A stretch of 64,000 nt of DNA from Marivirga atlantica (GTDB taxonomy: Bacteria > Bacteroidota > Bacteroidia > Cytophagales > Cyclobacteriaceae): the NCBI RefSeq assembly GCF_016734805.1, contig NZ_JAERQG010000002.1, positions 744,001 to 808,000 of the forward strand. The letters are read 5' to 3'. Below, piece by piece: positions 18,835-50,306 of this stretch. How positions within the stretch are numbered: the stretch's first letter is position 1; the number at the start of each line of letters is the position of its first letter. A model generated the notes under the pieces. That model did not search any database. It was not told where the DNA came from and saw only the letters and a list, made by a program, of their open reading frames with translations. A program made the position numbers and the translations under genes.

Positions 18835-18836
18835 CT

Positions 18837-19208
18837 ATGGAGGCTTATTATTTAGAAGCAACACCTAAAACACCGAAACTTGATTTTAATCCTGCAGCGG
18901 ATACTTTTTTGATATCCGGAAGATCAATCCCAGAGAATTCTATCGAGTTTTATAAGCCATTACTCGATTGGTTAGATGATTATGTAAATAACCCAAAGGA
19001 TTCTACTAATTTTGAAGTTAAATTAGAGTATTTTAATACTAGCTCCTCAAAGTGTTTGGTTGAAATATTCAGAAAACTTGAAAAAATACCTCAAACGGGT
19101 AAAGAATTAAGTGTTGACTGGTATTTTGATGAGGATATGCAGGAATCAGGAGAGGATTTTAAGGAAATTATTAAAGTTCCATTTCGAATGATTCAGATTA
19201 AAGACTAA
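18837..19208 (+). CDS. siaC: SiaC family regulatory phosphoprotein (DUF1987)
   Basis: This 123-residue DUF1987 protein has an anti-sigma-antagonist-like fold. The conserved loop YFNTSSSK puts threonine at residue 68, the number of the phospho-acceptor threonine reported for P. aeruginosa SiaC. It starts 2 bases after siaB and precedes the coiled-coil membrane gene by 8 bases. In Pseudomonas the dephosphorylated form activates the cyclase SiaD. Here no GGDEF gene is near, so the downstream partner must differ or lie elsewhere. Confidence 0.88.
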   Translation: MEAYYLEATPKTPKLDFNPAADTFLISGRSIPENSIEFYKPLLDWLDDYVNNPKDSTNFEVKLEYFNTSSSKCLVEIFRKLEKIPQTGKELSVDWYFDEDMQESGEDFKEIIKVPFRMIQIKD

Positions 19209-30468: not shown

Positions 30469-30483
30469 TTCCATTTTTTGGAA
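30469..30483. promoter_or_regulatory. Dyad TTCCA-N5-TGGAA (site 1), candidate activator binding site
   Basis: Perfect 5-bp inverted repeat with a T-rich 5-base centre, 109 bases (centre to ATG) upstream of the VCBS protein gene. It is one of four copies found only in the gaps of this gene region. It lacks a longer stem, so it is not a convincing terminator here. Confidence 0.6.
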
Positions 30484-30518
30484 ATTTACTTTAACTAGTT
30501 TCTTATTAACTATCACAA

Positions 30519-30553
30519 AATCAGTTAGTTAAAATTTAGGTATACCTATTGAT
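30519..30553 (+). promoter_or_regulatory. IHF-like site and sigma-54-like promoter of the VCBS gene
   Basis: AATCAGTTAGTTA (30519-30531) fits the IHF consensus WATCARNNNNTTR at every defined base. It is followed by AGGTATACCTATTGAT (30538-30553), which has GG and TTG at the -24/-12 spacing of sigma-54 promoters (consensus TGGCACGNNNNTTGCA), though not the terminal GC. The GG lies 64 bases after the dyad centre. Transcription would start near 30563. Confidence 0.5.
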
Positions 30554-30584
30554 ACATGCGTAATGTATCATAAAATAGGTTACC

Positions 30585-33500
30585 ATGAGAAAAGTATTAT
30601 TATCGATTATTATTCTGTTTTGCACCTTCTTTAATCTTATAGCCGGAGGTGAACCTAGTACTTACTTTAATATTTATGTTCCGCCTAATAATGATGCTGT
30701 TAGGAGAGATGTTGCACTTATAGTGACAGCCATTAATGATAGCACTTATTTTTCCATTAATGATGATGGAGCTGATGGAGACACTGATGATACAGTTTCC
30801 GGATGGCTTATGGCGGGTCAGTCTTACATTTTATACATAAGAGACAATGGTATTAATGATGATGCCAGGTATGCCTCTGGTGGAGAGCTCAAAAGTGATG
30901 GTGACTATTTTACTATAGAAAGCAGCAAATTGGTGTATGCTTCTATGTCTACTAATAGTGACTGGCAGCATGATTTTGTCGCATCTGTCAATAAAAAATC
31001 AGTAGGTTCTAAATTTATTATTTATTCACCTGCAACCTCTTTCTCAAACAGAGATTTAAATGTATTTGCCTATGAAGATGATACACGGGTAACCATCTCT
31101 AAAATATCTAATTCAGCTACCAATCAAACCGGATATACCGATGTAGATATAAATAATTCTCAAATTGTCGCACAACAAACTTTAGATATTGGCCAAGATA
31201 TCATTCACTTTTTTACTGATGGACGAGATATAATGGCTTCAGGTGAAACATTTCTGATTGAATCAAACAAAGACATTAGCGTGCAATATGGCGCCTTGTG
31301 GACTAATGCAAGAGATGGTGGTGGCTATGTGCCAAGTGCGAATGGAAGTTCTTCAGGAGAATTATTCTATTTTGCTGTACCTTATCAAGCAGGTGGTGAG
31401 CAAGAAATAAGAATCGTTTCCTGGGATGATGATAATGATGTGGTACTCGAGCGATATGTTAATGGTAGCTGGGTAGAAATAAATAATTGGAATTTGAATA
31501 CATACAACCCTGCGGATTGGGTAGGTAAGCAAAACGGAAATGTTACTTACAATACTGTGTTCAGAGTTACGTGTTCAATAGGAAAGAGGGTGTCTGTTTT
31601 TGAAGCCAACTGGATGGAAACTGGTTCAATAGGTACCTCAGATATGGCTACCATGTTATCTTCAGCAAATGGTACTACTTCCGGAACGGAGTTTCTGGCT
31701 TACATAGCGCCTCCTGGTAACGAACAGAATGTAGTTGATCCATTTACGGGTAATAAAATAGGTCAAAGTCTTACACATCTCTATCTCTTTGCAAGCACAA
31801 CTCAGGCCACAGTGAATGTTGTTGATGCTAAAACGCAAGGACAGGTTTTTAATAAGACCTTTGCAGTTGATGCTGAGAGATATGCGGATGTGCAAATTAC
31901 AGCAAACGAATGGAAAAGTATTTATAACGGAACAGGTACTAATTCAGGATCTGACAGACCATATTTATTCATTTCTTCCAATCAGAATATTGCGGTACTC
32001 AATACTAACTTTAACGATAACTGGATGACCTATTTCGGGTCTTCTTTACCTCATGCCTTTAAGCTATCAGCTAATGAAACTACCAATTCAGCCATACCAG
32101 GCGATACTTTAAGGCTATCTTCAAAAATAGTAATTGAGGGAAACTCTACGCTTGAAAATGCAAACCTTACTGTAAAAGTAGGTTCTGGAGCTGTACCAGT
32201 AAGTAGTGTTTTAAGTAACAATACTGATGGAACGAGCATCAGTGGTGATATAAGCATATCAGATAACAATAGTATTATTTCTTTCCAAGATGTTCCAGAT
32301 ATAAAAGCAACGGATGATTATGAGGTAGTTACTGAGCTAGTGCTAAGTACTGCCTATAATAATGGAGAATTAATTGAAGATAATACGGTAATAACTGTTG
32401 AAAATATCTTGTCTGGTGAAATTGACAACTACCAGCAGGAGAGCATAATTACACAGGGTATTCAGAATAATTCGAGTAATGCTAGCTTGTTATTAATGAA
32501 TGATTGTTCATCAGAATTATTTGATAATACCTTAACAAATAGCTGGAATTCAGTCTGGTTAGATTATAATAATGATGGCTGGGATGACTTATTCCTTACA
32601 GACAAAAATGAGAATTCTCCTAACAGACTTTATAAGAATGAGTCTGGTTCTTTAACCGAAGTAACAAGTGGCCAGCCTGTACTAAACAGCTTAAGCAAAA
32701 CAGTATCTGCTATAGCTGCTGATATAAATAATGATGGCTGGGAAGATTTATTTATTGTAAACGCTACAAATGCTAATAGCTCAATATACCTTAGCAATAA
32801 TGGAATCTTTAGTGAATTAGAGAATAGTGGTTTATCAATTCACCCTGAGTATTTCCATGGAGCAAGCTTCGCAGATTTCAATAATGATGGCTATGTAGAT
32901 TTATTAGTGACCAACTTTTTCATTACCAAATTTCACCAACTTTATAAAAATAATGGTGACAATACCTTTACGCTCATTACTGAGAATGAAATTGCTATTA
33001 CGAGTGCACGCTCAACAGCACCCGTATTAGCAGATTACGATCATGATGGATTAATCGATGTTTTTATACCTAACGGAGATAGTAAACCTAATAGCCTTTT
33101 CAAGAATTTAGGTAATTTTCAATTTACTGCAGTAACCAATGAAATAACGACAGAAGCTAAAAATTCTGTAAGTGCTGCTTGGGGCGATTACGATAATGAT
33201 GGTGATCTTGATCTATTTGTTGGAAATGCTTCGGCTCAAAATAATGACTTTTATGTGAACAATGGTGATGGCAGTTTCACGAAGTTAGATATAACTACAA
33301 TTACGAATAATGGGGGGCACAGTCATGGAGCTAAATGGGTGGATTTAAACAATGATACCCATTTAGATCTCCTGGTGAATAATGATCAAGGTCGAAATTT
33401 TGTTTACCTAAATAATGGAACAGGTAACTTTATCTTAAAGAATGATGAAATCATTAGTGCTGATTTCGGGAATGCCTATGGAATGGCCATTTCCGATTAT

Positions 33501-35195
33501 AATCATGATGGTATGCAAGATGCGTTTATTTCTACTCATGGTAATGAAGCAAATAAGTTGTTTTGCGGTAACTCAAATGATAATCACTGGATAGCCTTTA
33601 AGTTGGAGGGAGTTATAAGTAATGCCTCTGCTATTGGAGCAAAATTATACTTAAAAGCTGGAGGCAACTGGTATTATAAAGAGCTTTTGCCTGTTTCCGG
33701 ATTTGGTAGTCAAAGTAGTTTAATTCAGCACTTTGGATTGGCGGAAAATACTGTTGTAGATTCTTTAAAGGTTGAATGGCCATCGGGCATTACGCAACAT
33801 ATTACCACAGGTTTAATAGTTGATGCCACCAATGTTATTACAGAAGAAGCTCAGGTAACGCTGAAATTAATCAGCTTTCATGATCAAAATGGAAATAGCG
33901 TACAAGATGCATCAGAAGCTGGAATTGAGAATATAAGAATTACAGTTTCAAATCAGACGAATTACGTGGTGAGTGGACCGAATGGCGAGACATTCGTCAA
34001 TTTAGAAGCAGGTAATTATGATATTTCGCTGGCACCAAATGATTATTGGCAACTTGCCAATTCCATTAATCAGCCACTAGATGGATCGGAGGAATTCCTA
34101 ACGGTATATTTACCATTAGAGGCTAAGCAGTTGGGCAATGATGTATCTATAAACGTAGTTCAAACTCCTTGGAGAAGAGGATTTAAAAATAGCACTATAG
34201 TTCAGGTGAAAAATGAAGGAACAACAACTGCTTACCCTACTGATATCACTCTGAATTATCCTGATGGAGTTTATATTGTAGATTCCGAAAGAGCCTATGC
34301 GGAATTTGGTGCAGATTATGTTTTTACTGTAGACTCATTGGCACCAGGAGAAATAATAAGTTTTAGTTTAATGGACAGTGTTGGCTTGGAAACCGTGGTA
34401 GGTGAGTTCTTGGCTTTTGAAGCTCACGTATATCTAGAAACTCAAGACTTAAATCCAGCTAATAATTCAATTTATGCAAATATAGAAATAGTTGGAGCCA
34501 TTGACCCTAACGATATTGTGGTTTCACCTAGAGGTGAAGGCACAGATGGATGGGTTTCGGCTGATCAATGGTTAACATACACTATAAGATTTCAAAATGT
34601 AGGCAGTTATTATGCAACTCATGTGTTTTTAGAGAGTGAAATAGATGAAGATTTGGATATAAATGCGTTAGAATTGATTAGTTCAAGTCATCCGGTATCC
34701 GTAAAACTCGTTGGTGATTCACTTAAAGCTGCCTTTTACAATATTATGCTAATGGATAGCTCGACAAATGAAGTAGAAAGTCATGGTTATCTTCAGTACA
34801 GAATTAAACCTACGAGCAGGTTTAATGGAGGAGAACCAATTTATAATCAAGCAGCTATCATTTTCGACTATGAAGCTCCTGTGATTACCAATAAGCTAAG
34901 AAATACCATTAAATACGATGGTAATGGTAGCATAGGACGACTTAATGTATACCCAAATCCTGCTGATAATTACTGTATCATTAATACGGACATGGATTAT
35001 ATTAAGTATAACGAAGGTGAATTTCTTAAGAGTTACAGCATCAAAGATATTTACGGAAATGAAATTAGGAAAGGTGATTTTGAACCCATAAAAGAGGCTA
35101 CACTTCAATTAGAGAACATCCCATCAGGTATGTATTTCATTGAAGCTAAGGAATTGAGTGGTAAGCGATATGTCGCAAAAATTCTGATTAACTAA
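30585..35195 (+). CDS. Secreted FG-GAP/VCBS-ASPIC repeat protein with T9SS sorting domain
   Basis: This protein of 1536 residues has a signal peptide (MRKVLLSIIILFCTFFNLIA). Residues about 25-640 form a beta-rich region of uncertain family. About 660-980 holds seven FG-GAP/VCBS calcium-type repeats (DYNNDGWDDLFL, DFNNDGYVDLLV, DYDNDGDLDLFV and so on). Next come an ASPIC/UnbV-like domain (about 1000-1080, LKVEWPSGITQH), a SdrD/Cna B-like domain (HDQNGNSVQDASEAGIENI), a CARDB-like part and a repeat with PNDI-VVSPRGEG. The last ~85 residues are a type A-like T9SS signal: LNVYPNPADNY to MYFIEAKELSGKRYVAKI. Expected location is the cell surface or matrix. It is monocistronic, between the kinase and the EPS cluster. 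Confidence 0.88.
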   Translation: MRKVLLSIIILFCTFFNLIAGGEPSTYFNIYVPPNNDAVRRDVALIVTAINDSTYFSINDDGADGDTDDTVSGWLMAGQSYILYIRDNGINDDARYASGGELKSDGDYFTIESSKLVYASMSTNSDWQHDFVASVNKKSVGSKFIIYSPATSFSNRDLNVFAYEDDTRVTISKISNSATNQTGYTDVDINNSQIVAQQTLDIGQDIIHFFTDGRDIMASGETFLIESNKDISVQYGALWTNARDGGGYVPSANGSSSGELFYFAVPYQAGGEQEIRIVSWDDDNDVVLERYVNGSWVEINNWNLNTYNPADWVGKQNGNVTYNTVFRVTCSIGKRVSVFEANWMETGSIGTSDMATMLSSANGTTSGTEFLAYIAPPGNEQNVVDPFTGNKIGQSLTHLYLFASTTQATVNVVDAKTQGQVFNKTFAVDAERYADVQITANEWKSIYNGTGTNSGSDRPYLFISSNQNIAVLNTNFNDNWMTYFGSSLPHAFKLSANETTNSAIPGDTLRLSSKIVIEGNSTLENANLTVKVGSGAVPVSSVLSNNTDGTSISGDISISDNNSIISFQDVPDIKATDDYEVVTELVLSTAYNNGELIEDNTVITVENILSGEIDNYQQESIITQGIQNNSSNASLLLMNDCSSELFDNTLTNSWNSVWLDYNNDGWDDLFLTDKNENSPNRLYKNESGSLTEVTSGQPVLNSLSKTVSAIAADINNDGWEDLFIVNATNANSSIYLSNNGIFSELENSGLSIHPEYFHGASFADFNNDGYVDLLVTNFFITKFHQLYKNNGDNTFTLITENEIAITSARSTAPVLADYDHDGLIDVFIPNGDSKPNSLFKNLGNFQFTAVTNEITTEAKNSVSAAWGDYDNDGDLDLFVGNASAQNNDFYVNNGDGSFTKLDITTITNNGGHSHGAKWVDLNNDTHLDLLVNNDQGRNFVYLNNGTGNFILKNDEIISADFGNAYGMAISDYNHDGMQDAFISTHGNEANKLFCGNSNDNHWIAFKLEGVISNASAIGAKLYLKAGGNWYYKELLPVSGFGSQSSLIQHFGLAENTVVDSLKVEWPSGITQHITTGLIVDATNVITEEAQVTLKLISFHDQNGNSVQDASEAGIENIRITVSNQTNYVVSGPNGETFVNLEAGNYDISLAPNDYWQLANSINQPLDGSEEFLTVYLPLEAKQLGNDVSINVVQTPWRRGFKNSTIVQVKNEGTTTAYPTDITLNYPDGVYIVDSERAYAEFGADYVFTVDSLAPGEIISFSLMDSVGLETVVGEFLAFEAHVYLETQDLNPANNSIYANIEIVGAIDPNDIVVSPRGEGTDGWVSADQWLTYTIRFQNVGSYYATHVFLESEIDEDLDINALELISSSHPVSVKLVGDSLKAAFYNIMLMDSSTNEVESHGYLQYRIKPTSRFNGGEPIYNQAAIIFDYEAPVITNKLRNTIKYDGNGSIGRLNVYPNPADNYCIINTDMDYIKYNEGEFLKSYSIKDIYGNEIRKGDFEPIKEATLQLENIPSGMYFIEAKELSGKRYVAKILIN
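32562..33530 (+). repeat. Seven FG-GAP/VCBS repeats within the secreted protein
   Basis: Seven copies of D-x-[ND]-x-D-[GT]-x2-D (calcium-loop type) occur about every 50 residues, for example at 32562 (DYNNDGWDDLFL) and 33495 (DYNHDGMQDAFI). These blades normally build a beta-propeller. Confidence 0.8.
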
Positions 35196-35215
35196 ATTAT
35201 TTAAACATCTCTCTT

Positions 35216-35257
35216 AAAGAGTTTATTTCCATATTTTGGAAATAAACTCTTTTTTTT
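35216..35257 (+). terminator. Terminator of the VCBS gene containing dyad site 2 (TTCCA-N5-TGGAA)
   Basis: A perfect 16-bp stem, 35216-35231 paired with 35237-35252, has a five-base loop and runs into eight T (35250-35257), 20 bases after the stop: a textbook rho-independent terminator. Its apex is TTCCA-N5-TGGAA (35227-35241), identical in form to the dyads at 30469, 42380 and 47929, and lies 126 bases upstream of the next ATG. The same bases may therefore also serve as an activator site. Confidence 0.85.
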
Positions 35258-35295
35258 GGATAAAAATTTATTGGCACAATAGTTATAATATTGAA

Positions 35296-35330
35296 AATCA
35301 GTAAGTTATAAATTTGGTTTGATTTTGAAC
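35296..35330 (+). promoter_or_regulatory. IHF-like site and sigma-54-like promoter of the EPS operon
   Basis: AATCAGTAAGTTA (35296-35308) fits WATCARNNNNTTR fully. TGGTTTGATTTTGAAC (35315-35330) has TGG and TTG, one base closer than the ideal sigma-54 spacing. An overlapping TAAATTTG (35309-35316) also fits the ordinary -7 box, so the promoter class is ambiguous. The GG lies 83 bases after the dyad centre. An alternative -24-like TGGCAC occurs at 35272. Confidence 0.45.
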
Positions 35331-35359
35331 ATGTCTGGTAAAACATAAATACTCAAGAC

Positions 35360-35794
35360 ATGAAAAATTTACCTAATATCAAGACTTTTGTAGTGGACGA
35401 TGATCCATTCTTTCTTCAAATCATGGAGCAGGTTCTTCTAAACCTGGGGATTGATGATGTTACCTGTTTCGATAATGGGTTTGACATACAGAACAGCTTA
35501 CATCAAAAACCTGAAATCATCTTTCTTGACTATAACCTGGAAGGCATAACAGGATATGATGTCCTTAAAAAAATCAAAAGATACGATCCTGACATTTACG
35601 TAATTCTTATTTCAGCACAAGATGAAATAAAGCCTGCGGTAGATGCGCTTAAGCACGGAGCATTTGATTATTTACAAAAATCAAATGACACGATGAATCA
35701 GGTGGAGGCAATCATAGGAAAAGTGCTTGCTGTAAAAGAAGCTTTGGAAAAGAATAAGCCAACACTTCTAAAAAGAATCTTTCAAATAAAGTAG
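35360..35794 (+). CDS. Stand-alone receiver-domain response regulator
   Basis: This 144-residue protein is a single receiver domain with no output domain. It has acidic VDDDPF near residue 12, phospho-acceptor Asp in IIFLDYNLEG (about residue 57) and Lys in DYLQKSND. It is the first gene of the EPS transcription unit, two bases before the export lipoprotein gene. It could take phosphate from the nearby hybrid kinase's HPt and control EPS assembly by protein contact, as CheY-like proteins do (inference). Its receiver resembles that of the NtrC-type protein at 24259 (KPEIIFLDYNLEGITG versus KPDVVCIDFGLPDLSG), so they may be paralogues. Confidence 0.88.
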   Translation: MKNLPNIKTFVVDDDPFFLQIMEQVLLNLGIDDVTCFDNGFDIQNSLHQKPEIIFLDYNLEGITGYDVLKKIKRYDPDIYVILISAQDEIKPAVDALKHGAFDYLQKSNDTMNQVEAIIGKVLAVKEALEKNKPTLLKRIFQIK

Positions 35795-35795
35795 C

Positions 35796-36548
35796 ATGAA
35801 GAAGTCATTTCACATATTACTCTCATTTATGCTTTTGCTAGTACTTCTTAGTTCGTGCAAAACGCAGAACTTATTTGAATCACAAAAGCCTGATGATTAT
35901 ATAGCCACGCTTGACAGTGTTTTCTATAATAATCAGGATTATGAATACAGAATCAAAAAGGATGATAAGGTAAGCATAAGTTTATGGGGACAAGATGAAT
36001 TAAGTATCGGCTCAGTTTACGGTATTTATAATTCAAATGAGGTATATGGGAAATGGCTTTTGGTTGATGCGCAAGGAATGATTTCTCTACCGAAGATTGG
36101 CCCTTTTTATGTTGAAGGTAAATCGGTCATAGAAATGAAGGACACCCTAAAAAACGTATTTAGCAAATGGGTGCAAAACCCAGTAGTTGATGTAAAAATC
36201 CTTAATAAGGAGATAACCATTTTGGGAGAGGTGAGAACTCCGGGAGTTGTAAAAATAGACAAAGACCGAAACCAATTGATGGAGTTGATCGCCAAATGTA
36301 GTGGATTTGAATTCTACGCAAATCTGAAGAAGATAAAAGTGTTAAGACAAGTTGGTGCGGATGTAGCTGTTACCAACATTGATTTAACCAAAGCTGATCA
36401 CCTTTCACAAAGAAATCTTTACCTCTTACCGGGCGATGTTGTAATAATCCCTTCTAAGAGATATAAGGAGTTCGACAAGCGTATTTCTGTAATTATACCA
36501 TTAACTACCACAGTTTCTGCTGCGGCAATCATAATGGGATTATTCTAA
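35796..36548 (+). CDS. Polysaccharide export lipoprotein (Wza/PES family)
   Basis: This protein of 250 residues has a lipoprotein signal peptide with lipobox LLSSC (Cys near residue 22). It has a polysaccharide biosynthesis/export N-terminal domain (YRIKKDDKVSISLWGQDEL) and one SLBB domain (ITILGEVRTPGVVKI). A hydrophobic C-terminal segment (IPLTTTVSAAAIIMGLF) resembles the C-terminal membrane helix of Wza. Wza proteins form the outer-membrane pore for EPS. The next gene, the co-polymerase, begins 5 bases on. Confidence 0.92.
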   Translation: MKKSFHILLSFMLLLVLLSSCKTQNLFESQKPDDYIATLDSVFYNNQDYEYRIKKDDKVSISLWGQDELSIGSVYGIYNSNEVYGKWLLVDAQGMISLPKIGPFYVEGKSVIEMKDTLKNVFSKWVQNPVVDVKILNKEITILGEVRTPGVVKIDKDRNQLMELIAKCSGFEFYANLKKIKVLRQVGADVAVTNIDLTKADHLSQRNLYLLPGDVVIIPSKRYKEFDKRISVIIPLTTTVSAAAIIMGLF

Positions 36549-36553
36549 ATTCT

Positions 36554-38740
36554 ATGAAAGATACGCTCATCATATTCAGACCATACCTTAGAGGCTTACC
36601 TATCATTCTTTTTATGATGATTGGCGGGTACATGCTCGCTTCAAAGTACCTCAATTATGTTACGCCAATGTATGAGAGTACAACTAAAGTTAAGCTGGCA
36701 GATATTTCAGAGGGTATAACCAATAGCAATCTTTTTAAGGATTTTGATGTATTCGCTACATCTAACAAGGTAGCTGGTGAAATTGAAGTTCTTAAATCCG
36801 AAGTATTATTAAATAAGGCTTTGGATCAGCTAGACTTTGATTTAGAAATTTACAGAAAGGGCAAAATCAGATCTGTAGAGCTTTATCATGAAAGTCCTGT
36901 TAAGATTCACTTTGGTGAACTGACGGAAAATATTGAGAATAAAGAAATTGATTTTCAGATAGATGCGGATAACCTCATCAAGTTAGTAAACCAGAATGGT
37001 GTATATGCCAGCGGCCAATTAGGAGACACAATAACAGCTCCTTTTGGCAGAGTGCTTTTTACTAAGAATGAAGAAGCATTTTCTGGAAATACCCACTTGA
37101 AAGTTGTGGATAATTATAGCTTCAAATTCTTAAAAAGAAGTAGCCTAATAAGCACGGTTAAAAAGAACCTGGATATAACAGCTGTTGATAAAGATGTTGC
37201 TGTAATTAGGATTATCTTCAAATCACCAAATCCTGAAAAGGCAGCTAAATTAGCGGCAACCTTGGCAGAGGTTTATATCCACGATTATATAGATTCAAAA
37301 TACAAAGTTGCCAACATCACTGCTAACTTTTTAGAAAAGCAGATTGATGCTGTAAATACAAAGTTGATTGAGTCTGAAAATAATATCCAAAACTTCAGAG
37401 ATAGAAATGGTATCACCAACATCAGACAAGAAACTGAAACAGAGTTAAGAAGGATTTCGCAGCTTAAAATTCAACAAACTAATTTGAAGATGAGCCTTCA
37501 GGCAATTGAGGAGCTTGAGGCCTATGTGAAAGCCGGCAAAGATAACTTCCTTGAATTGGCTCCCAATTTTGAGGCCTTTACGGATTTATTATCAACAGAG
37601 ATTGTCAAAAACATCAAAGCATTACAAGCAGAGAAAAAGGATCTTCTTTTAGTTTATACCGAAGAGGAGGAATCTGTTCAGATTATTGATAAAAAGATCG
37701 AGGACTTGAAGCTTTACCTCATCGAAAGTATTTCCAACACAAGAAAAAACTTACAGACAAAATATGAGCTTCTCTCGAGTCAGATTACTGAATCGGAAAA
37801 GGTATTTATTAAGGTGCCCGCTCATGAAAAAATGCTGACTATTCTTAATAGAGAATTCAACATTTATGAGAAATCTTTCAACTTTCTGAATGAAAAGAAA
37901 ATAGAGGCAGAAATTGCTCAAGCTGCTAAAATAGCCTTCCATAGAGTGATCAGTCCTGCGGCTGTTCCTCAGGTTCCTGTTTCACCCAATAGAACCATTA
38001 TTAAAATTGTAGCAGCAATGCTAGGGATGTTTGGGGCTATTGCTTTCATATTTGTGATTCATGCTTTAAAGGCCAGAGTTAATAACAGAAAGACTATTGA
38101 AGACAACTCTTTAATTCCTTTAGCGGTAGAAACACCCAAGTTAAAAATGGCAGAAGATGAAATCACTCATTTTCAACGCTTGGTTACTCAGCTTGAAATT
38201 AAAGGACTTATTCAGCCTAATGCCATCATTAGCATTAGTGATTTTAAAAAGAATGAAGGTGCTCTATACAACGGACTTCATTTAGCTAAAACATTATCTA
38301 AACAAGGTGCTAGAGTAATGGTACTAGATGTTGCCGATCAGGCAGCCTCTTTTCCTGACAAGTTTCAGTCAATATTAGAAGATGGTACGGGTGTAGATAT
38401 CATGAACTTGAAAGACTCGGGCTTTGAGCTGATGTCAAAAGACAACGCAAGACAATATATTTTGAATATGGCTGAGCAATATGATTATACTTTAATACTT
38501 AATGACTATTTGGGTAGCAGAAATTCACTGCTTATGCTGGCATTCTCGAATGTGAATTTTATTTCATTAGATGCACGCTTAACACTGGCAAGTAAGATAA
38601 CTGAAGCCAATTTATTGATTGAGGAGTATGAAGTGAAGGATACTCATTTCATTCTGAATAGAGCTCATTATAATCCAAATATTGTGGTTGAAGTATATAG
38701 CTACCTCAAGAAACTAATCAAAAAGTTCATTAAGAAATGA
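36554..38740 (+). CDS. Wzc-like polysaccharide co-polymerase with degenerate kinase domain
   Basis: This 728-residue inner-membrane protein controls EPS chain length and links to the export pore. It has an N-terminal Wzz segment with a membrane helix (about 14-33), a long periplasmic coiled-coil (about 250-450), the PxxP region FHRVISPAAVPQVPVSPNRT and a second helix (about 480-505). A cytoplasmic BY-kinase-like domain follows. In that domain the Walker A site is lost: SISDFKKNEGALYNGLHLAK lacks GKS/T, and the A' motif reads VLDVADQA instead of DxDxR. There is no C-terminal tyrosine cluster. It is therefore a pseudokinase, probably acting structurally. Confidence 0.9.
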   Translation: MKDTLIIFRPYLRGLPIILFMMIGGYMLASKYLNYVTPMYESTTKVKLADISEGITNSNLFKDFDVFATSNKVAGEIEVLKSEVLLNKALDQLDFDLEIYRKGKIRSVELYHESPVKIHFGELTENIENKEIDFQIDADNLIKLVNQNGVYASGQLGDTITAPFGRVLFTKNEEAFSGNTHLKVVDNYSFKFLKRSSLISTVKKNLDITAVDKDVAVIRIIFKSPNPEKAAKLAATLAEVYIHDYIDSKYKVANITANFLEKQIDAVNTKLIESENNIQNFRDRNGITNIRQETETELRRISQLKIQQTNLKMSLQAIEELEAYVKAGKDNFLELAPNFEAFTDLLSTEIVKNIKALQAEKKDLLLVYTEEEESVQIIDKKIEDLKLYLIESISNTRKNLQTKYELLSSQITESEKVFIKVPAHEKMLTILNREFNIYEKSFNFLNEKKIEAEIAQAAKIAFHRVISPAAVPQVPVSPNRTIIKIVAAMLGMFGAIAFIFVIHALKARVNNRKTIEDNSLIPLAVETPKLKMAEDEITHFQRLVTQLEIKGLIQPNAIISISDFKKNEGALYNGLHLAKTLSKQGARVMVLDVADQAASFPDKFQSILEDGTGVDIMNLKDSGFELMSKDNARQYILNMAEQYDYTLILNDYLGSRNSLLMLAFSNVNFISLDARLTLASKITEANLLIEEYEVKDTHFILNRAHYNPNIVVEVYSYLKKLIKKFIKK

Positions 38741-41069: not shown

Positions 41070-42361
41070 AGACTATTACTTCAAATATTGACCATAGCCA
41101 ATTTTATAAGAAGGTCAACTTTCAGCTTTTCTTAATCCTTCTTTTAATGGTAGCCTGCTTTTTTACCTGGAGCGAAAATGTAGTCATTACTCGGGGGATA
41201 AAGGTAGTTGGGAGAATGGGTGTACTTTTTAGTTCTTATTTGGTATACAAGAAAATTATCAACTACGGAGCTGTAGACAACTTAAAGTGGAATAATGTAA
41301 TGTCTATATTTTTCTATGGCACTTATTTATTTTTAGGTTTCGCTTCTTTTATGTGGAGTACCAATGTAGGATATAGTGCACTGCAATGGTTTATGACTAC
41401 TCAAACCTTAGTGTTTTGCTACTATTTTGTGAAATGTCTTTTCTTATTGGATAAGTTCTTCCCTGAACATCCTATCAGGTTGTATAATTTATTGGGTGAT
41501 GCCTGCTTCGTTTTGCTAAGTATTTTTGTGGTTGGCATGTGGGTGAACCCTGATGTTTTTTTCCGAATGACACATGGAGGAGAAGAAGCCAGACTAGGAG
41601 GTTATATGATGAATCCTAATGAATTAGGAATGTTAGCAGGGGTTGGTGTAGCAGGCTTGATATTCGATTTAAGAAGAAACCATAAAAGATGGTGGACCAT
41701 TTTTAAGTTGGCTGTGATGTTTTATGCTCTTTATGCAACTGGATCAAGGTCTTCATTAATTGGTGCTTTACTTATTATCGGTTTTCATGTTAAGCAGTCT
41801 TCAAATGCCAAACTTAAAATTTTAATAATAACAGGTATGATAGTGGTAGCACCAGTGGCTATCTGGAAAGTTGTTTTGAAAGATGGCGATACCGAAAGGC
41901 TTGAAGAAGTAATGAGTATGACTGGCCGTTTACCTTTCTGGACAGCTTTGATCAATGAAGGTTTGCCAAGAGAGCCTCTTCTAGGTTTCGGCTTTATGCG
42001 GATTGATTATAAAGAATATTTTCAAAGTACGCATACTTATCCTGGTAAGATGACACATAATACATTTATGCAAGTGCTGATGAATTTAGGGTTTATTGGT
42101 ATCACGGTCATCATTTTTCAGATGATCTTTACTTTTAAAGGAATAGCCAAAGAAAATGATGAAAAACGCTTGATGCTGTATTGTATTTTAATACCCCTCA
42201 TTATTAATTCACTTACTGAGTTTGGCATTTATGGTGAATCTAACTATGGCATTTTATTCTATCAACTTATTATACTCTACATATCCTTTAGGGATAACCA
42301 CATCTTGAGTCCGGCCGGCAGATTATACCTTAAAAAGAGACGTCCCGACTTAGCTGTCTAA
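41066..42361 (+). CDS. O-antigen ligase/polymerase-like protein (Wzy family)
   Basis: This 431-residue multi-spanning membrane protein shows the Wzy_C/O-antigen ligase core: GGYMMNPNELGMLAGVGVAG, ATGSRSSLIGALLI and, in the periplasmic loop, MTHNTFMQVLMNLGFIG. It most likely polymerises EPS repeat units. It is the last gene of the first EPS unit; a 147-base gap with a regulatory dyad follows. Confidence 0.85.
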   Translation: MKTITSNIDHSQFYKKVNFQLFLILLLMVACFFTWSENVVITRGIKVVGRMGVLFSSYLVYKKIINYGAVDNLKWNNVMSIFFYGTYLFLGFASFMWSTNVGYSALQWFMTTQTLVFCYYFVKCLFLLDKFFPEHPIRLYNLLGDACFVLLSIFVVGMWVNPDVFFRMTHGGEEARLGGYMMNPNELGMLAGVGVAGLIFDLRRNHKRWWTIFKLAVMFYALYATGSRSSLIGALLIIGFHVKQSSNAKLKILIITGMIVVAPVAIWKVVLKDGDTERLEEVMSMTGRLPFWTALINEGLPREPLLGFGFMRIDYKEYFQSTHTYPGKMTHNTFMQVLMNLGFIGITVIIFQMIFTFKGIAKENDEKRLMLYCILIPLIINSLTEFGIYGESNYGILFYQLIILYISFRDNHILSPAGRLYLKKRRPDLAV

Positions 42362-42379
42362 TTCCATTTCTCAAACATG

Positions 42380-42464
42380 TTCCAAAATATGGAATATGTG
42401 TTTGCGTCAAACCTGTCCCCAGTTCATTTAAATGCTGTTTTCCGCAGATGGCATCACTGTTGTC
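42380..42464 (+). promoter_or_regulatory. Dyad site 3 and sigma-54-like promoter
   Basis: TTCCA-N5-TGGAA at 42380-42394 is the same dyad as sites 1, 2 and 4. TGGCATCACTGTTGTC (42449-42464) is the best sigma-54-type element in the window (consensus TGGCACGNNNNTTGCA). Its GG lies 64 bases after the dyad centre. Only a weak IHF-like match lies between (42417-42429). A hairpin (42468-42499) comes just before the gene start. Confidence 0.55.
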
Positions 42465-42508
42465 AATGTTTTACAGCCTTAGTAGGCTAAATGTAAAACT
42501 TAAAATGT

Positions 42509-44920
42509 ATGTCAATGAATAAGCTATTTGATGAATTAGGATACACCGGGTCAAGCATTACAGATGGTGGAAAAGAACTCAAGCTATTAGTTGTAAATAA
42601 CCCTGATGGAAGTATTAGATGGGTTGTTCCTGCAACTGCGCGCAAAGCTTATTTCTTAAAATTTTATAATACATCAAGCCTGAAGGCCAAGCTGATGGCA
42701 CTATGTTTTAAGCTTGTTTTTCTATTAAGGCTTCAGCATGTAATCTTGAAATCGAAACTTGTAGTCATTAAACCGAATAGCCAGCTAAATCAAATTATTG
42801 ACTTATGGGGTAATAAAGCTTGGGCAATCTTTACAGGCACGCCTGGCCCTAACAATAAAAAGATACTTTATTACATAAGGGGCAGAAGAAGCTTCTTTGT
42901 GAAGTTTTCAAGTAAATTTAATAGTGTTAGACTCATTCAGAATGAGTCAAAAACAATCGATCTTTTAACTAAAAATAACATCTGCACTTTTGAATTTCCT
43001 GATGTATATAAGAATAACGGTACTTCCTTAACATTAACAGACATTTCAGAAAATAGTGCCAGATCAACTGAATTAAGTCGACATCATTTTCTGGCCCTGC
43101 AAGAGATATCCCTTATTAAACCCACTAAAATTCAGACATTTAATTTTGATGAGTTAGTAAAATCATTCGAAAGAAAATTGGGTCAGCTTTCTGAACAAGG
43201 TGACGAAAGAGTATCTCAGGCACTTTACAAGAAGCTTAGAATGTTATTAGCCAATCTTAAGGAGCAGAATCTTACTACAGGTCTAATACATGGTGACTTT
43301 ACACCATGGAATACTTATTACAAAAATGGACAGCTTGGAATATACGACTGGGAGCTAAGTAGCTTTAATGTACAAGGGTATGATTTCTTTCATTTTGTTA
43401 TTCAGAAGGGGATTCTTTTGGAAAGAAAAACCTGGAAGGAGATTTACGCAGAATTACGCTATTATGCATCCAAACCATATTTTTCCTCTTGTTTCCCAGA
43501 GGTGGCAAAGAGTTTTAACGAATACCTGGCTGCTTATTTACTTTTTAATACAATTGAAAACCTTTCGTTATTCCAAAAACAGGAAAAATGGCATATTCAG
43601 GTTAATTGGCTTTTGAGCACCTGGAATCAGGCAATTAGCCAACTACTTGCTGAATTTATAGGTGATAGAAAAGTATTACTGATTGATGCATTTAGTTATT
43701 TCAATAAGTTCGAATATGCAGGAATTAAAGTGCCTAACATAGCCGTAGACTTTATCTCAGAGGAATCGGACGTTGACTTATGCATTAAAAAAGCTGATGC
43801 GAGCCAATTCGTGAATTATTTACAAGATCATCCTTTAGTGGCTAAGTTAAGAGTGCTAAGAAAAAGCTACATGTTTGAAGTAAAAGCAATTCTTAGCAAT
43901 GGTCAACAGCTTGATTTTGATTTGTTGTGGAATCTTAAAGTAAAAGAACTATCAGTATTAAGCTTTAAAGAATTACTGCATGATTATCAGATAAACGATT
44001 ATGGCGTAAAGGTGACTTCCGTTTTAAATACTGCCAGGTTTATAGGATTGTTTTATGGTATGAACGGAGCCAATGTGCCTAAAAAGTATAATAACCTGAT
44101 GCTTAACCTGAAAAGCTCATCACAACTTCTCGATAGAATTATTTTTGATTCAGCTATTAATGGTTCCATTCCAAGGTACAAACTCAAATTGCTTAAATCA
44201 GGCGATCCGGAGAATAGCGGTATTAATTATGTTAAAAACTTATTCCTTTATGTGCTTGATACCTTAAAAACACTACTGAAATACAAAGGCTTTGTAGTCA
44301 CTTTCAGTGGAGTTGATGGAGCAGGAAAGAGCACTGTGATAGATAATCTTAAGCACAGACTTGAAAAGAAATATAGAAGGAGAGTGGTTGTATTAAGACA
44401 CAGACCTTCGCTACTTCCTATTTTGAGTGTCTGGACAAAAGGGAAAAAGAAAGCCCAGGAGGATGTCATCAACGCTTTACCTCGCCAAGGAAACAACAAG
44501 AGTACAATTGGCTCATTAGTCCGATTCGCCTATTACTATATAGATTATTTAATCGGACAGTTCTACGTGCATATACGATATGTAAGTTTAGGAGTGGTGG
44601 TTTTATATGACAGATATTATTTCGACTTTATAAATGACGGAAAGAGAAGTAATATCAATTTACCTGAAAAATGGGTAAAGCCTTGGTATAAGTTACTCTT
44701 AAAACCAGATGTGAACTTCTTTTTATATGCCGATCCTCAGGAAATTCTGAGAAGAAAGCAAGAGTTGAATGAAGAAGATATTAAGTCTTTGACTTCAAAA
44801 TACCTCAATCTATTTAAAAGTCTTAACAAGGGTAAGCGTTCGCGCTATATCCCTGTAGAAAATAAGAATCTTGATGATACACTCAATCTGATTGAAAAGA
44901 GAACAGCTTTAAGTATGTGA
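42509..44920 (+). CDS. Three-part protein: APH-like kinase, nucleotidyltransferase-like middle, thymidylate-kinase-like P-loop domain
   Basis: This protein of 803 residues has an unusual arrangement. Residues about 100-380 resemble aminoglycoside/choline phosphotransferases, with a Brenner-type LIHGDFTPWNTYY near 260 and GIYDWELSS as the metal site. The middle (about 395-560) has DFISEESDVDLCI and LDFDLLWN, which look like a nucleotidyltransferase acidic core. Residues about 595-800 form a P-loop kinase with TFSGVDGAGKSTVIDNL near 600, LYDRYYFD as the DRY-like motif and a lid with RRKQEL. EPS loci sometimes carry TMP-kinase-like proteins of unknown role. The small-molecule substrate is unknown. 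The start could be ATG 42509 or 42515. Confidence 0.7.
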   Translation: MSMNKLFDELGYTGSSITDGGKELKLLVVNNPDGSIRWVVPATARKAYFLKFYNTSSLKAKLMALCFKLVFLLRLQHVILKSKLVVIKPNSQLNQIIDLWGNKAWAIFTGTPGPNNKKILYYIRGRRSFFVKFSSKFNSVRLIQNESKTIDLLTKNNICTFEFPDVYKNNGTSLTLTDISENSARSTELSRHHFLALQEISLIKPTKIQTFNFDELVKSFERKLGQLSEQGDERVSQALYKKLRMLLANLKEQNLTTGLIHGDFTPWNTYYKNGQLGIYDWELSSFNVQGYDFFHFVIQKGILLERKTWKEIYAELRYYASKPYFSSCFPEVAKSFNEYLAAYLLFNTIENLSLFQKQEKWHIQVNWLLSTWNQAISQLLAEFIGDRKVLLIDAFSYFNKFEYAGIKVPNIAVDFISEESDVDLCIKKADASQFVNYLQDHPLVAKLRVLRKSYMFEVKAILSNGQQLDFDLLWNLKVKELSVLSFKELLHDYQINDYGVKVTSVLNTARFIGLFYGMNGANVPKKYNNLMLNLKSSSQLLDRIIFDSAINGSIPRYKLKLLKSGDPENSGINYVKNLFLYVLDTLKTLLKYKGFVVTFSGVDGAGKSTVIDNLKHRLEKKYRRRVVVLRHRPSLLPILSVWTKGKKKAQEDVINALPRQGNNKSTIGSLVRFAYYYIDYLIGQFYVHIRYVSLGVVVLYDRYYFDFINDGKRSNINLPEKWVKPWYKLLLKPDVNFFLYADPQEILRRKQELNEEDIKSLTSKYLNLFKSLNKGKRSRYIPVENKNLDDTLNLIEKRTALSM

Positions 44921-44922
44921 TT

Positions 44923-45615
44923 ATGAAAGGGCTTTTAACAAAAATTATCAGGTTAAGAAATCCAAATTTTAAACTTGACAGCCAGCTTAATAATGGGGCT
45001 ATAGTTGAATTTGTATGGGTGCAATTTTGGAGCTTGATGCGCTCACTAAAAATGCTACTTAGGGGTAAAGCACCAAAGTTTGCACTTCTTGGTAAGAGGG
45101 TGAGTTTCTTCAACTTATCAAAAATACATTTTGGTAAGTTCATGAAGCTTGGCGATCAGGTATATATCAGTGCCCTTGCTAAAGAAGGTGTGTTTATTGG
45201 TAATAATGTAGGAATTGGTGCACACAGCAGAGTGGTGGTTTCCACTTCTCTCAATCAACTCGGTGAATTTATCAAAATAGGTGATAATGTTGGTATAGGT
45301 GAGTTTGCCTATTTAGGTGGAGCAGGAGGATTAGAAATTGGAGATGGCTGTATTATAGGCCAATATTTAAGTTGTCATCCTGAGAATCATAATTATCAAT
45401 CATTAGAAAAGGAAATACGGCATCAGGGTGTTAGCCGCAAAGGAATTAAAATCGGTGCCAACTGCTGGATTGGCAGTAAAGTAAGCATACTCGATGGTGT
45501 GTCCATAGGTGAAGGATCTATTATTGCCGCAGGTGCTGTGGTGAACAAGTCATTTCCGGATAACTCAATAATAGGTGGTGTACCTGCCAAATTAATAAAA
45601 TCACGATTAGACTGA
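44923..45615 (+). CDS. Hexapeptide-repeat acyltransferase (WcaF/WbbJ-like)
   Basis: This left-handed beta-helix acetyltransferase is about 230 residues long. Imperfect hexapeptides run from VYISALAKEGVFIGNNVGIG to SIGEGSIIAAGAVVNKSFPD, ending in the family signature GGVPAKLIK. The likely catalytic His is in SCHPENHNY. It probably acetylates a sugar of the EPS using acetyl-CoA. The ATG at 44923 is preferred to the GTG at 44917, which overlaps the preceding stop. Confidence 0.88.
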   Translation: MKGLLTKIIRLRNPNFKLDSQLNNGAIVEFVWVQFWSLMRSLKMLLRGKAPKFALLGKRVSFFNLSKIHFGKFMKLGDQVYISALAKEGVFIGNNVGIGAHSRVVVSTSLNQLGEFIKIGDNVGIGEFAYLGGAGGLEIGDGCIIGQYLSCHPENHNYQSLEKEIRHQGVSRKGIKIGANCWIGSKVSILDGVSIGEGSIIAAGAVVNKSFPDNSIIGGVPAKLIKSRLD

Positions 45616-45619
45616 ACCA

Positions 45620-46846
45620 ATGAAAACAATTTTAGCTACTGCCTATGCGGTAAATCCTTACAAAGGATCAGAAGATGGAATGGGATGGAATATGATTTTG
45701 CAAATCGCCAGATTCCAAAAAGTGATTGCAGTCACTCGTGAAAATAATGAACCCAAAATAGCTCAGTATATGAAGGAGAATCCTTCAAAGCTTTATGACA
45801 ATATTCAGTTTGAATATTTTGATTTGCCTTACTGGATGCGTTTCTGGAAGAAAGGTGGAAGAGGAGCTATGCTGTATTATTGGATGTGGCAAAGGGGAAT
45901 TGTTGGCTTCATTCAAAAGAAGGGATTTGTTTTTGATATTGCTCACAACCTTAATTTTCATAATGACTGGACACCCAGCTATCTCTGGAAACTGAATAAG
46001 CCTTTTGTATGGGGGCCAGTTGGTCATCATCCTAAAATACCTACGCAGTACCTTAAAGATTATAACCGTCTTCAGCATTTAAAGGATTTGCTTACCTGGA
46101 GAATCAAGCAATTTTTTTGGAATAGCTCTACAGATTTATCTAAAGCTATTAATAAGGCGGATCACATATTTTGTATGAATTCAGAAGTGCATCAAGTGCT
46201 CGAATTTGATAAGGAAAAATCATCGATAATGCCTTCAGTTGCTACGCAGGATTTTGGTTTTATTTCCAACTATAAGCCTGAAATGTTCTCAGTAATATCA
46301 GCCGGTAGATTAGTTGCATTAAAAGGATTTGATCTTACCATTAAAGCTTTTGCCAGCTTCATTAACCAATTAAATGCAGAAGAAAGGAAGATGACTGAAC
46401 TCACTATTGTGGGGTGCGGACCTGAACTTAGCAACTATAAGGAACTTGTTCTGGAGTTGAATATAGAAGAAAATGTGCAATTTATTGAGTGGATTGACCG
46501 AGTAGACCTCATGAGGAAATTTAAAGTTTCATCAGCTTTCTTGTTTCCTTCTCATGAAGGGGCAGGTATGGTAGTTGCTGAAGCATTATCCTTTGGTGTG
46601 CCTGTAGTTTGTCTGGACAATGCCGGACCTGGTGAATTTATTGATGATAAATGTGGCATAGCAGTTAAGCATCAGGATTATGATGATACGGTTACTGAAC
46701 TAGCTAAAGGTTTAAAAAAGCTTTACACTGATAAAGAAACATTTGCAGAAATGAGGATTAATGCTAGAAAGAGGTTTGAATCTCATTTCAACTGGCAAAT
46801 TAGAGGGAAGCAGTTAAAAGAAGTTTATCAAAAGGTTGTATCATGA
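45620..46846 (+). CDS. Glycosyltransferase family 4 protein
   Basis: This 408-residue GT-B enzyme starts with MKTILATAYAVNPYKGSEDG, a GT4 subtype seen in EPS loci, followed by WGPVGHH. The donor domain has ISAGRLVALKGFDLTIKAF, LTIVGCGPEL and the EX7E motif SHEGAGMVVAEALSFGVPVV. Sugar specificity is unknown. It begins 4 bases after the acyltransferase and overlaps the next gene by four bases. Confidence 0.9.
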   Translation: MKTILATAYAVNPYKGSEDGMGWNMILQIARFQKVIAVTRENNEPKIAQYMKENPSKLYDNIQFEYFDLPYWMRFWKKGGRGAMLYYWMWQRGIVGFIQKKGFVFDIAHNLNFHNDWTPSYLWKLNKPFVWGPVGHHPKIPTQYLKDYNRLQHLKDLLTWRIKQFFWNSSTDLSKAINKADHIFCMNSEVHQVLEFDKEKSSIMPSVATQDFGFISNYKPEMFSVISAGRLVALKGFDLTIKAFASFINQLNAEERKMTELTIVGCGPELSNYKELVLELNIEENVQFIEWIDRVDLMRKFKVSSAFLFPSHEGAGMVVAEALSFGVPVVCLDNAGPGEFIDDKCGIAVKHQDYDDTVTELAKGLKKLYTDKETFAEMRINARKRFESHFNWQIRGKQLKEVYQKVVS

Positions 46847-47916
46847 GAATCATTGCTGCTCACCTATTTAATGACTTTAGCGGAAGCCCTAAAGTGTTAA
46901 TGCAGTTGATCAAAGGTTGGTTAGCTCATGATTTTGATGTTGAGGTTTACACCTGCGGTGGTAGAGAAGGTTTTCTGTCAGATATACCCGGAGCCAAAAA
47001 ATTTAATTATTGGTACAAACTAGCATCTAATCCTTATATCCGCTTTGTTTTTCTGTTTATAAGCCAAATGCTTCTTTTTTTTAAGCTTGTGTTTAAGATA
47101 GAAAAATCGGATATTATATATGTAAATACCGTACTACCTTTTGGCGCTGCCTTGGCAGGTAAATTAAGAGGTGCAAAAGTAATTTATCATATACATGAAA
47201 CCAGCCTAAAACCATTAATATTTAAAAAATTAATGTTTGCCTTGGTTAAACTTTGCGCTGCCAAAGTAATTTATGTATCTAAGTATTTGGCAGCGGAGGA
47301 GCCTATCAATTCTGTTGAGCAACACATTTTATATAATGCAATTCCTGATGACTTCTTAAAAGAAGCCTCAAATAACCAACGTTCGCACCAGGAGCCGAGA
47401 AATGTACTTATGGTTTGCTCTTTAAAGGACTACAAAGGTGTAAAAGAGTTTGTAGAATTGGCTCTAATGAATGATCACTTCCAATTTAGGTTGATCTTGA
47501 ATGCATCTGAAACTGAAAAATCGAACTACTTTAAAAATATTATTATACCTAATAATTGTGAAATCTATACCACGCAAACAAACTTACATCCGCACTATCA
47601 ATGGGCAGATATTATCCTAAACTTATCGCGACCTGATGGTTGGATTGAAACCTTCGGTCTAACCATTATTGAAGGTATGGCTTACAGATTACCTGCTATA
47701 ATTCCACCTATCGGAGGTATTACTGAGTTGGTAGAAGATGCTGTGAATGGTTATCAGGTTGACAGTAGAAAAAGAATTCAATTAAGTGAAGCACTTAGTG
47801 CCATTATGAGTAATACTTATACACATAATGCTATGAGTGCTGCTGCGCAATTAAAACTTATGCAGTTTACTGAGGCTCAATTTATTGAATCCAGCTTAGC
47901 CATATTAAAGTGCTAA
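46843..47916 (+). CDS. Glycosyltransferase family 4 protein
   Basis: This 357-residue GT4-like enzyme has an N-terminal domain with FNDFSGSPKVLMQLIKGWL and YVNTVLPFGAALAG. Its donor domain has VLMVCSLKDYKGVKEFV, then WADIILNLSRPDGWIETFGL and TIIEGMAYRLPAIIPPIGGI. The terminal part is well conserved, though the acidic motif is spread out (ETFGLTIIE). It is the last gene of the second EPS unit; a gap with dyad site 4 follows. Confidence 0.88.
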   Translation: MRIIAAHLFNDFSGSPKVLMQLIKGWLAHDFDVEVYTCGGREGFLSDIPGAKKFNYWYKLASNPYIRFVFLFISQMLLFFKLVFKIEKSDIIYVNTVLPFGAALAGKLRGAKVIYHIHETSLKPLIFKKLMFALVKLCAAKVIYVSKYLAAEEPINSVEQHILYNAIPDDFLKEASNNQRSHQEPRNVLMVCSLKDYKGVKEFVELALMNDHFQFRLILNASETEKSNYFKNIIIPNNCEIYTTQTNLHPHYQWADIILNLSRPDGWIETFGLTIIEGMAYRLPAIIPPIGGITELVEDAVNGYQVDSRKRIQLSEALSAIMSNTYTHNAMSAAAQLKLMQFTEAQFIESSLAILKC

Positions 47917-47928
47917 TCATGGATTTAT

Positions 47929-48012
47929 TTCCAATTTCTGGAAATAATTTCAAACAAAAATATTATAAGTATCTGGTAATCAGTTGTTAAAAAATTAGGT
48001 ACGTTTTTTCAT
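47929..48012 (+). promoter_or_regulatory. Dyad site 4, IHF-like site and sigma-54-like promoter of galE
   Basis: TTCCA-N5-TGGAA at 47929-47943 extends to 9-bp arms (47925-47947). AATCAGTTGTTAA (47978-47990) is one base off the IHF consensus. AGGTACGTTTTTTCAT (47997-48012) has a good -24 half (GG-x-ACG) but TTC at -12. The GG lies 63 bases after the dyad centre. The 23 bases 47978-48000 match those at 30519-30541 and 35296-35318 in 16 positions shared by all three. Confidence 0.5.
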
Positions 48013-49083: not shown

Positions 49084-49087
49084 GATC

Positions 49088-50296: not shown

Positions 50297-50306
50297 TTCA
50301 CGAGCT

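Follow-up and report, generated by a model that had tools for sequence, protein, structure and literature searches.

In the 64-kb stretch of Marivirga atlantica DNA analysed here (64,000 nucleotides, hereafter the window), four copies of the dyad TTCCA-N5-TGGAA very probably serve as upstream activating sequences for the NtrC-type response regulator whose gene lies at 24259-25617; this regulator would coordinate a surface protein exported by the type IX secretion system (T9SS) with three exopolysaccharide (EPS) operons. This interpretation, put forward in a first-pass annotation made from the sequence alone, is supported by the exclusive intergenic position of the four dyads in the genome, their retention in relatives, the clustering of such dyads at loci of regulator orthologues and the helical phasing of the -24 elements behind them; from these we infer binding by the regulator, sigma-54 dependence and co-expression of the targets.

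We propose that the hybrid kinase encoded at 25625-30445 phosphorylates the regulator via a receiver/Hpt relay and that the active regulator binds the dyad, with weaker half-sites 20 bp away assisting at some promoters. A bending protein of the HU/IHF family at a TGATWWTCA/IHF-like element would loop the DNA, and the AAA+ ring would open the sigma-54 polymerase at a -24/-12 element on the same helical face as the dyad. The predicted outcome is coordinated expression of the T9SS-exported surface protein and the three EPS operons.

Dyads and promoter elements in the window

The first-pass annotation had placed the four dyads correctly (Table 1), and its distances from dyad centre to ATG (109, 126, 122 and 113 bases) are exact. 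Between 30.4 and 51.4 kb there are indeed exactly four gaps of more than 100 bp (139, 164, 147 and 132 bp), each holding one dyad, and the remaining gaps of this stretch measure 10 bp or less. Its statement that the gaps it checked hold no further copy stands. A fifth exact copy was found in coding sequence; this was judged to be a chance copy and no part of the system. The five exact copies in the window compare with a mean of 0.12 in shuffled sequence.

Searching the genome (4.19 Mb, 14 contigs), in which the window is C7:744001-808000, yielded 14 exact copies of the dyad, compared with 3 of a reversed control pattern. By open reading frame (ORF) calling, the only intergenic copies are the four in the EPS gaps, the other ten being coding. 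The 28 places that match with one mismatch and an AT-only spacer were all examined, and the single intergenic one besides the four is a terminator-like hairpin. Because the copies outside the EPS gaps are coding and the one extra intergenic match is such a hairpin, the intergenic dyad marks one locus in this genome.

The regulator carries GAFTGA at residue 220 and the recognition helix IGKSTVYNMIK, and its match to HTH_8 of Pfam scores 19.8 bits, just below the cut-off of 22. Among 80 regulator orthologues, GAFTGA is exact in 68, the remainder having near variants, and the recognition helix IGKS[TK]IY is near-invariant, with V for I in the window regulator. The presence of rpoN, on which the proposal depends, was confirmed in the genome (Sigma54_DBD, E 1.4e-56, one match), which also encodes six strong Sigma54_activat proteins; one gene of the HU/IHF family (PF00216) was found.

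As the first-pass annotation had counted, GG follows the dyad centre by 64, 83, 64 and 63 bases. The -24/-12 spacing that it proposed stands for sites 1 and 3, where TTG occupies the canonical -12, and is weak for sites 2 and 4; a perfect GC at -12 is found in none of the four promoters, as had been conceded, and GG is present in all four. Site 2 offers an alternative -24 (TGGCAC at 35272, 38 bp from the dyad centre) and also has a sigma-A-like TAAATTTG box (TAnnTTTG-like) at 35309. An IHF-like element, whole or partial, was seen at three of the four sites, and an AATCAG...GG stretch is common to sites 1, 2 and 4.

Regulator orthologues and a shared promoter code

The expectation that homologous loci keep the dyads was borne out in part. 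Dyads stand at four equivalent places in Marivirga sericea (G003, NZ_FXAW01000001.1), where two of them extend into the end of the upstream gene and were therefore masked as coding, in the four equivalent gaps of Aquiflexum lacus (G010, NZ_JABFHF010000011.1) and in two gaps in G044; G042, G047 and G048 have none. In Aquiflexum lacus the last dyad lies before the DUF1972 transferase and is preceded by an extra 197-aa ORF, and a recognised galE is missing. Within the genus, the Wzc-like protein was found solely in the window's genome (G000) and G003, the two that bear the regulator, which suggests that regulator and EPS cluster travel together.

An unbiased scan of all 5-mer dyads with spacers of 0-12 was then made in the intergenic DNA of the 80 regulator-orthologue loci (the discovery set). 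TTCCA with spacer 5 ranked first, with 63 wholly intergenic copies in 44 loci and 11 others; a looser mask gave 66 intergenic copies in 47 of the 80 loci. Control loci around paralogous NtrC-type regulators, 31 in all, held one copy (47/80 vs 1/31, Fisher p 1.9e-8; by density, p 5.6e-9). This single copy came from the 11 control loci of genomes without an orthologue, and the 20 paralogue loci of orthologue-bearing genomes had none.

These counts bear on the alternative that some other factor binds the dyad, either a repressor or another of the six strong sigma-54 activators. The number of such activators in the genome would allow this, the binding of the dyad by the regulator is itself predicted, and dyad-like sequences also occur in genomes without a regulator orthologue. 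However, the near-confinement of intergenic dyads to orthologue rather than paralogue loci, together with the dyads found in the gap before 19 of 87 NtrC-class genes (a count that takes in divergent gaps), makes a different factor improbable.

Among the other genes of the 80 loci, a dyad lies upstream of 7 of 8 T9SS surface proteins, 15 of 23 stand-alone receivers, 7 of 17 weaker receiver homologues, 7 of 12 members of the 803-aa kinase class and 3 of 14 DUF1972 transferases, compared with 20 of 629 other genes. No upstream dyad was found for GT3 (0/10), histidine kinases (HK, 0/61) or weaker HK homologues (0/48). These zeros are informative for the genes that have an upstream gap (HK 12/61, weak HK 29/48, GT3 3/10, and likewise GalE 1/6). 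Poly_export, Wzc, Wzx, Wzy, GT1, GT2, Hexapep and WecA also have no upstream dyads, and these zeros for inner-operon classes say little because gaps of at least 60 bp are mostly missing there. Gene calling relied on scripted ORF length, which misplaces some starts and makes the gap counts approximate, and divergent gaps were counted once for each of the two genes.

Pooling the dyad promoters of the window and its relatives revealed a positional code. L126 and L128 were left out of the positional counts (L047 and L099 match contigs of G003 and G010 in length). The top enriched 6-mers downstream of dyads are TGGCAC (17/77 vs 19/454 other promoters) and TGGCAT (18/77 vs 22/454), both forms of the sigma-54 -24 element. 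The -24 pattern TGGYAY is about 3.5 times denser in dyad promoters than elsewhere (5.4 vs 1.6 per kb) and, among promoters of at least 70 bases, occurs in 26 of 49 dyad promoters compared with 62 of 454 others (p 1.6e-9). Measured from the dyad centre, the start of WGGYAY clusters at about 61, 73, 82, 92 and 104 bp; these classes were read off the discovery set, and the Rayleigh test is independent of them. With near-duplicates removed, helical phasing at 10.5 bp reaches R 0.63 (n=46), which none of 20,000 random sets equalled. At canonical spacing, the -12 shows T12 in 34 of 41 and G14 in 24 of 41.

The IHF consensus is WATCARNNNNTTR. Of 29 de-duplicated matches to TGATWWTCA, a motif that overlaps IHF-like WATCARNNNNTTR, 21 start at 37-41 or 57-59 bp, compared with a mean of 0.6 and a maximum of 4 in these windows over 200 shuffles. 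Of the 75 dyads, a minority have secondary half-sites, with TGGAA at -17 in 10 and at +23 in 5 and TTCCA at +13 in 7 and at -27 in 5. Such half-sites recurring 20 bp upstream or downstream would be expected for cooperative dimers.

The pooled promoters also speak to the alternative that these are ordinary sigma-A promoters, with the dyad as a class I/II activator or repressor site and the -24-like elements due to chance. It draws on the weak -12s in two of the four window promoters and on the TAAATTTG box of site 2. Against it, the -24 elements are both enriched and phased, and the counterpart of site 2 in Marivirga sericea does not retain the box. TAnnTTTG is rarer in dyad promoters than elsewhere (0.84 vs 2.14 per kb), although with length matched (4/49 vs 89/454) this depletion reaches only p 0.053. 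We therefore regard this alternative as highly improbable.

A further explanation holds that the dyads are stems of intrinsic terminators that end the upstream operons, any likeness in sequence being incidental. Site 2 is indeed a long perfect hairpin followed by T8, its Marivirga sericea counterpart (L047 20952) likewise ends in a T-run, and a T5 run lies within 22 nt downstream of 12 of 58 single-direction dyads, compared with 3 of 58 on the other side; some dyads thus probably double as terminators. As a general explanation, termination deserves hardly any credence: such a T-run is absent from 46 of the 58 single-direction dyads, the perfect stem ends at 5 bp in 36 of 75, divergent genes flank 17 of 75 by the count made here, and neither phased -24 nor IHF-like elements would be predicted.

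Several observations weigh against the dyads being the regulator's activating sequences. In the window itself the -12 elements are poor, even among relatives the conservation of C15 of the -12 is weak, and no IHF-like element was seen in the gap of site 3; a true IHF heterodimer is doubtful because a single HU/IHF-family gene was found. In three of six related genomes compared at the locus (G042, G047 and G048) no dyad is present, an exact intergenic dyad is missing from 33 of the 80 discovery loci (in 13 of them a dyad with one mismatch occurs together with a phased -24 or an IHF-like element), and none of the six GalE homologues in the discovery loci has one upstream. The 28 genomic places with one mismatch and an AT-only spacer are outnumbered by the 37 of the reversed control pattern. 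Across the phylum, the AT-spacer version of the dyad occurs in 115 of 296 genomes and a regulator orthologue in 19, and eight genomes of the same genus without the orthologue carry 19-21 dyad copies. An exact intergenic dyad was also found in only 7 of 35 held-out, more distant orthologue loci.

The held-out set comprised 35 further orthologue loci (32 and, in addition, L132-L134), in all of which the regulator is less than 90% identical to the discovery set. The difference from the 31 controls has p 0.058 when loci are counted and p 0.023 for dyad density. The held-out dyads follow regulator identity (5/8 at 60% or above, 2/20 at 55-60%, 0/7 below), and the same split is less sharp in the discovery set (28/47, 19/31 and 0/2, respectively). 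All three elements, with a dyad of at most one mismatch, were found in 3 held-out loci and in 0 of 31 controls. The held-out results therefore indicate that the code is a property of the closer clade, and that in distant orthologues it drifted or disappeared.

The whole-genome dyad count was considered as a marker of the regulator and rejected, given the 19-21 copies in genomes without an orthologue and an association of the AT-spacer dyad with orthologue genomes (11/19 vs 104/277 others) that is weak at best.

One orthologue locus (L205, G075:C9) holds an array at 9240-6995 on the minus strand, divergent from the regulator orthologue. It consists of five units in tandem, each about 290 nt long and comprising a dyad (one exact, four with one mismatch), an IHF-like element, TGGCAC as the sigma-54 element, a transcript that looks non-coding and a stem resembling a terminator (4 pairs changed on both sides). 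Against Rfam, no family matched the array at threshold, and a sub-threshold tmRNA match on the opposite strand was taken as chance. The array may possibly encode multicopy small RNAs, reminiscent of Vibrio Qrr.

Target operons and neighbouring genes

The features of the window are collected in Table 1. EPS operon 1 starts with a stand-alone receiver (35360-35794) of the kind that is a frequent dyad target across loci, and this receiver is a possible feedback element or phosphate sink in the relay. The 803-aa kinase-like protein of EPS operon 2 (42509-44920) has an APH-like kinase half and another half with a weak P-loop kinase match, and has homologues in related loci.

Table 1. Positions in the window of the regulatory genes, dyads, promoter elements and predicted target operons.
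Feature	Position	Strand	Remarks
NtrC-type response regulator	24259..25617	+	Proposed activator; receiver, sigma-54 AAA+ with GAFTGA, Fis-like helix-turn-helix (Pfam)
Hybrid histidine kinase	25625..30445	+	Proposed partner; PAS/GAF sensor modules, HisKA, HATPase, receiver, Hpt (Pfam)
Dyad 1 (proposed enhancer)	30469..30483	+	Counterpart dyad in Marivirga sericea and Aquiflexum lacus
IHF-like element 1, AATCAGTTAGTTA	30519..30531	+	TGAT half missing; positional class
-24/-12-like element 1, AGGTATACCTATTGAT	30538..30553	+	
T9SS-exported FG-GAP/UnbV_ASPIC (VCBS-like) surface protein	30585..35195	+	Pfam, including Por_Secre_tail
Dyad 2 (proposed enhancer)	35227..35241	+	Doubles as stem of long terminator-like hairpin, then T8
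Secondary half-site TGGAT	35257..35261	+	In phase, +23 from dyad 2 centre; class of secondary half-sites
IHF-like element 2, TGAAAATCAGTAAGTTA	35292..35308	+	58 bp from dyad centre
-24/-12-like element 2, TGGTTTGATTTTGAAC	35315..35330	+	Weak; alternative TGGCAC at 35272
EPS operon 1	35360..42361	+	Stand-alone receiver, Poly_export, Wzc/GNVR, Wzx-like, GT4, Wzy/ligase (Pfam)
Dyad 3 (proposed enhancer)	42380..42394	+	Exact motif match
-24/-12-like element 3, TGGCATCACTGTTGTC	42449..42464	+	Best of window
EPS operon 2	42509..47916	+	803-aa kinase-like protein, hexapeptide transferase, two GT4 (Pfam)
Dyad 4 (proposed enhancer)	47929..47943	+	Exact motif match
IHF-like element 4, TGGTAATCAGTTGTTAA	47974..47990	+	38 bp from dyad centre
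-24/-12-like element 4, AGGTACGTTTTTTCAT	47997..48012	+	Weak -12
Operon 3	48049..51374	+	galE-like epimerase, DUF1972 glycosyltransferase, WecA-like transferase (Pfam)
Fifth exact dyad	51413..51427	+	Inside topoisomerase IB gene (minus strand, 51371-52369)

Two neighbouring regions were noted. At 18286-19208, 5 kb upstream of the regulator, a DUF6272 protein adjoins a SiaC-family phosphoprotein, a pair which we take to be a biofilm-linked partner-switch module. The minus strand at 4269-11207 encodes a PKD/Ig-like protein of 2312 aa that carries a CHU_C T9SS signal.

Input signal and relation to known systems

H-NOX and FIST are families of nitric-oxide (NO) sensors, and FIST proteins include those of the NosP type. 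An H-NOX or FIST gene was found in 36 of the 80 orthologue loci, immediately following the regulator gene in 31 of these, and in none of the 31 control loci; in the held-out set such a gene adjoins the regulator in 8 of 35. These are undercounts, each family having been searched with one query protein (the FIST gene of L130 was missed). In Aquiflexum lacus the gene order is regulator, H-NOX and a kinase with an HNOBA domain. An intergenic exact dyad stands upstream of the sensor gene in eleven loci, with FIST in L063, L064, L075, L077, L083, L085, L088, L115 and L121 and with H-NOX in L096 and L097; the sensor of L118 was flagged too, its dyad copy sitting in coding sequence. To judge from these positions, the presumed NO sensors may themselves belong to the regulon.

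Neither an HNOB nor a FIST domain was found in the window's genome, and the sensor modules of the window kinase are PAS and GAF only. Sensing of NO via H-NOX or FIST was thus rejected for the window's organism. Since such sensors adjoin the orthologues and the genome has neither family, NO is plausible as an ancestral or alternative input, which in this genome would not act through H-NOX or FIST.

The closest known likeness is to SypG-SypF and the syp locus of Vibrio fischeri, which shares the NtrC-type regulator, a hybrid kinase with Hpt, sigma-54 and an upstream enhancer motif. As described in excerpts of PMC10162802 and PMC12369376, all four operons of this polysaccharide locus are activated, and an H-NOX-controlled kinase feeds the pathway; the SypG enhancer is given in the former as TTCTCANNNTGMDWN. 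Written as TTCTCANNNTG, the SypG motif occurs in the window at 31157, 45376 and 52026 only, each time inside an ORF. The layout here resembles that of syp, with four gaps, four dyads, an equivalent in two relatives and a predicted sigma-54 dependence. The Marivirga system differs in its enhancer (TTCCA-N5-TGGAA), its phylum, the T9SS surface protein in the same set, the IHF-like element at two fixed registers and a genome without H-NOX or FIST. Our comparison suggests that it most likely works like SypG/syp, with one enhancer-binding regulator acting on several sigma-54 promoters of a polysaccharide locus, and that it is no member of that system, because the enhancer differs and H-NOX was not found in the genome.

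A second comparison is offered by PrsK-PrsR/RpoN/PEP-CTERM in floc formation of Zoogloea and Aquincola, where an exported protein is under RpoN and an EPS cluster is present (PMC9850573). A two-component system and a predicted enhancer are probably involved as well; the RpoN target shown there is the PEP-CTERM protein, and the EPS biosynthesis genes are seemingly not RpoN-regulated. In the window, by contrast, the sites stand before the EPS operons themselves, and a T9SS signal is borne by the surface protein, its Pfam hits including Por_Secre_tail and no PEP-CTERM match. In the same phylum, -24/-12 promoters of the sigma-54 regulon have been mapped in Flavobacterium psychrophilum, and the selected targets comprise chaperones, a gliding operon and exported proteins (PMC9723704, excerpt). 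That excerpt gives no EPS cluster and no enhancer motif.

Among the literature matches listed, none describes a TTCCA-N5-TGGAA enhancer or an EPS sigma-54 regulon in Bacteroidota, and little was found on EPS or biofilm gene regulation in this phylum. The observation is real and, in its proposed sigma-54 enhancer logic, ordinary in kind; its code, host phylum and target set are new, as far as the literature searched reaches.

We tentatively suggest, at somewhat less than even chances, a broader picture in which the window represents a biofilm switch of Bacteroidota spread over several orders, with an activator clade of conserved recognition helix, a three-part enhancer code and an ancestral input from NO sensors (H-NOX or FIST/NosP-like) encoded next to the activator. 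The code would consist of the dyad, a bend element at 38 or 58 bp and a -24 element in whole helical turns, and the targets would be EPS operons, T9SS surface proteins, stand-alone receivers, the NO sensors and, in one genome, the five putative small RNA genes arrayed in tandem. The window's Marivirga lineage would have lost the gas sensor, with a large PAS/GAF kinase taking over from it. A readable enhancer code would make such regulons predictable from sequence across related genomes. It links EPS synthesis and T9SS surface display under one proposed activator and, in relatives, points to nitric oxide as an input, as is known for Vibrio fischeri.

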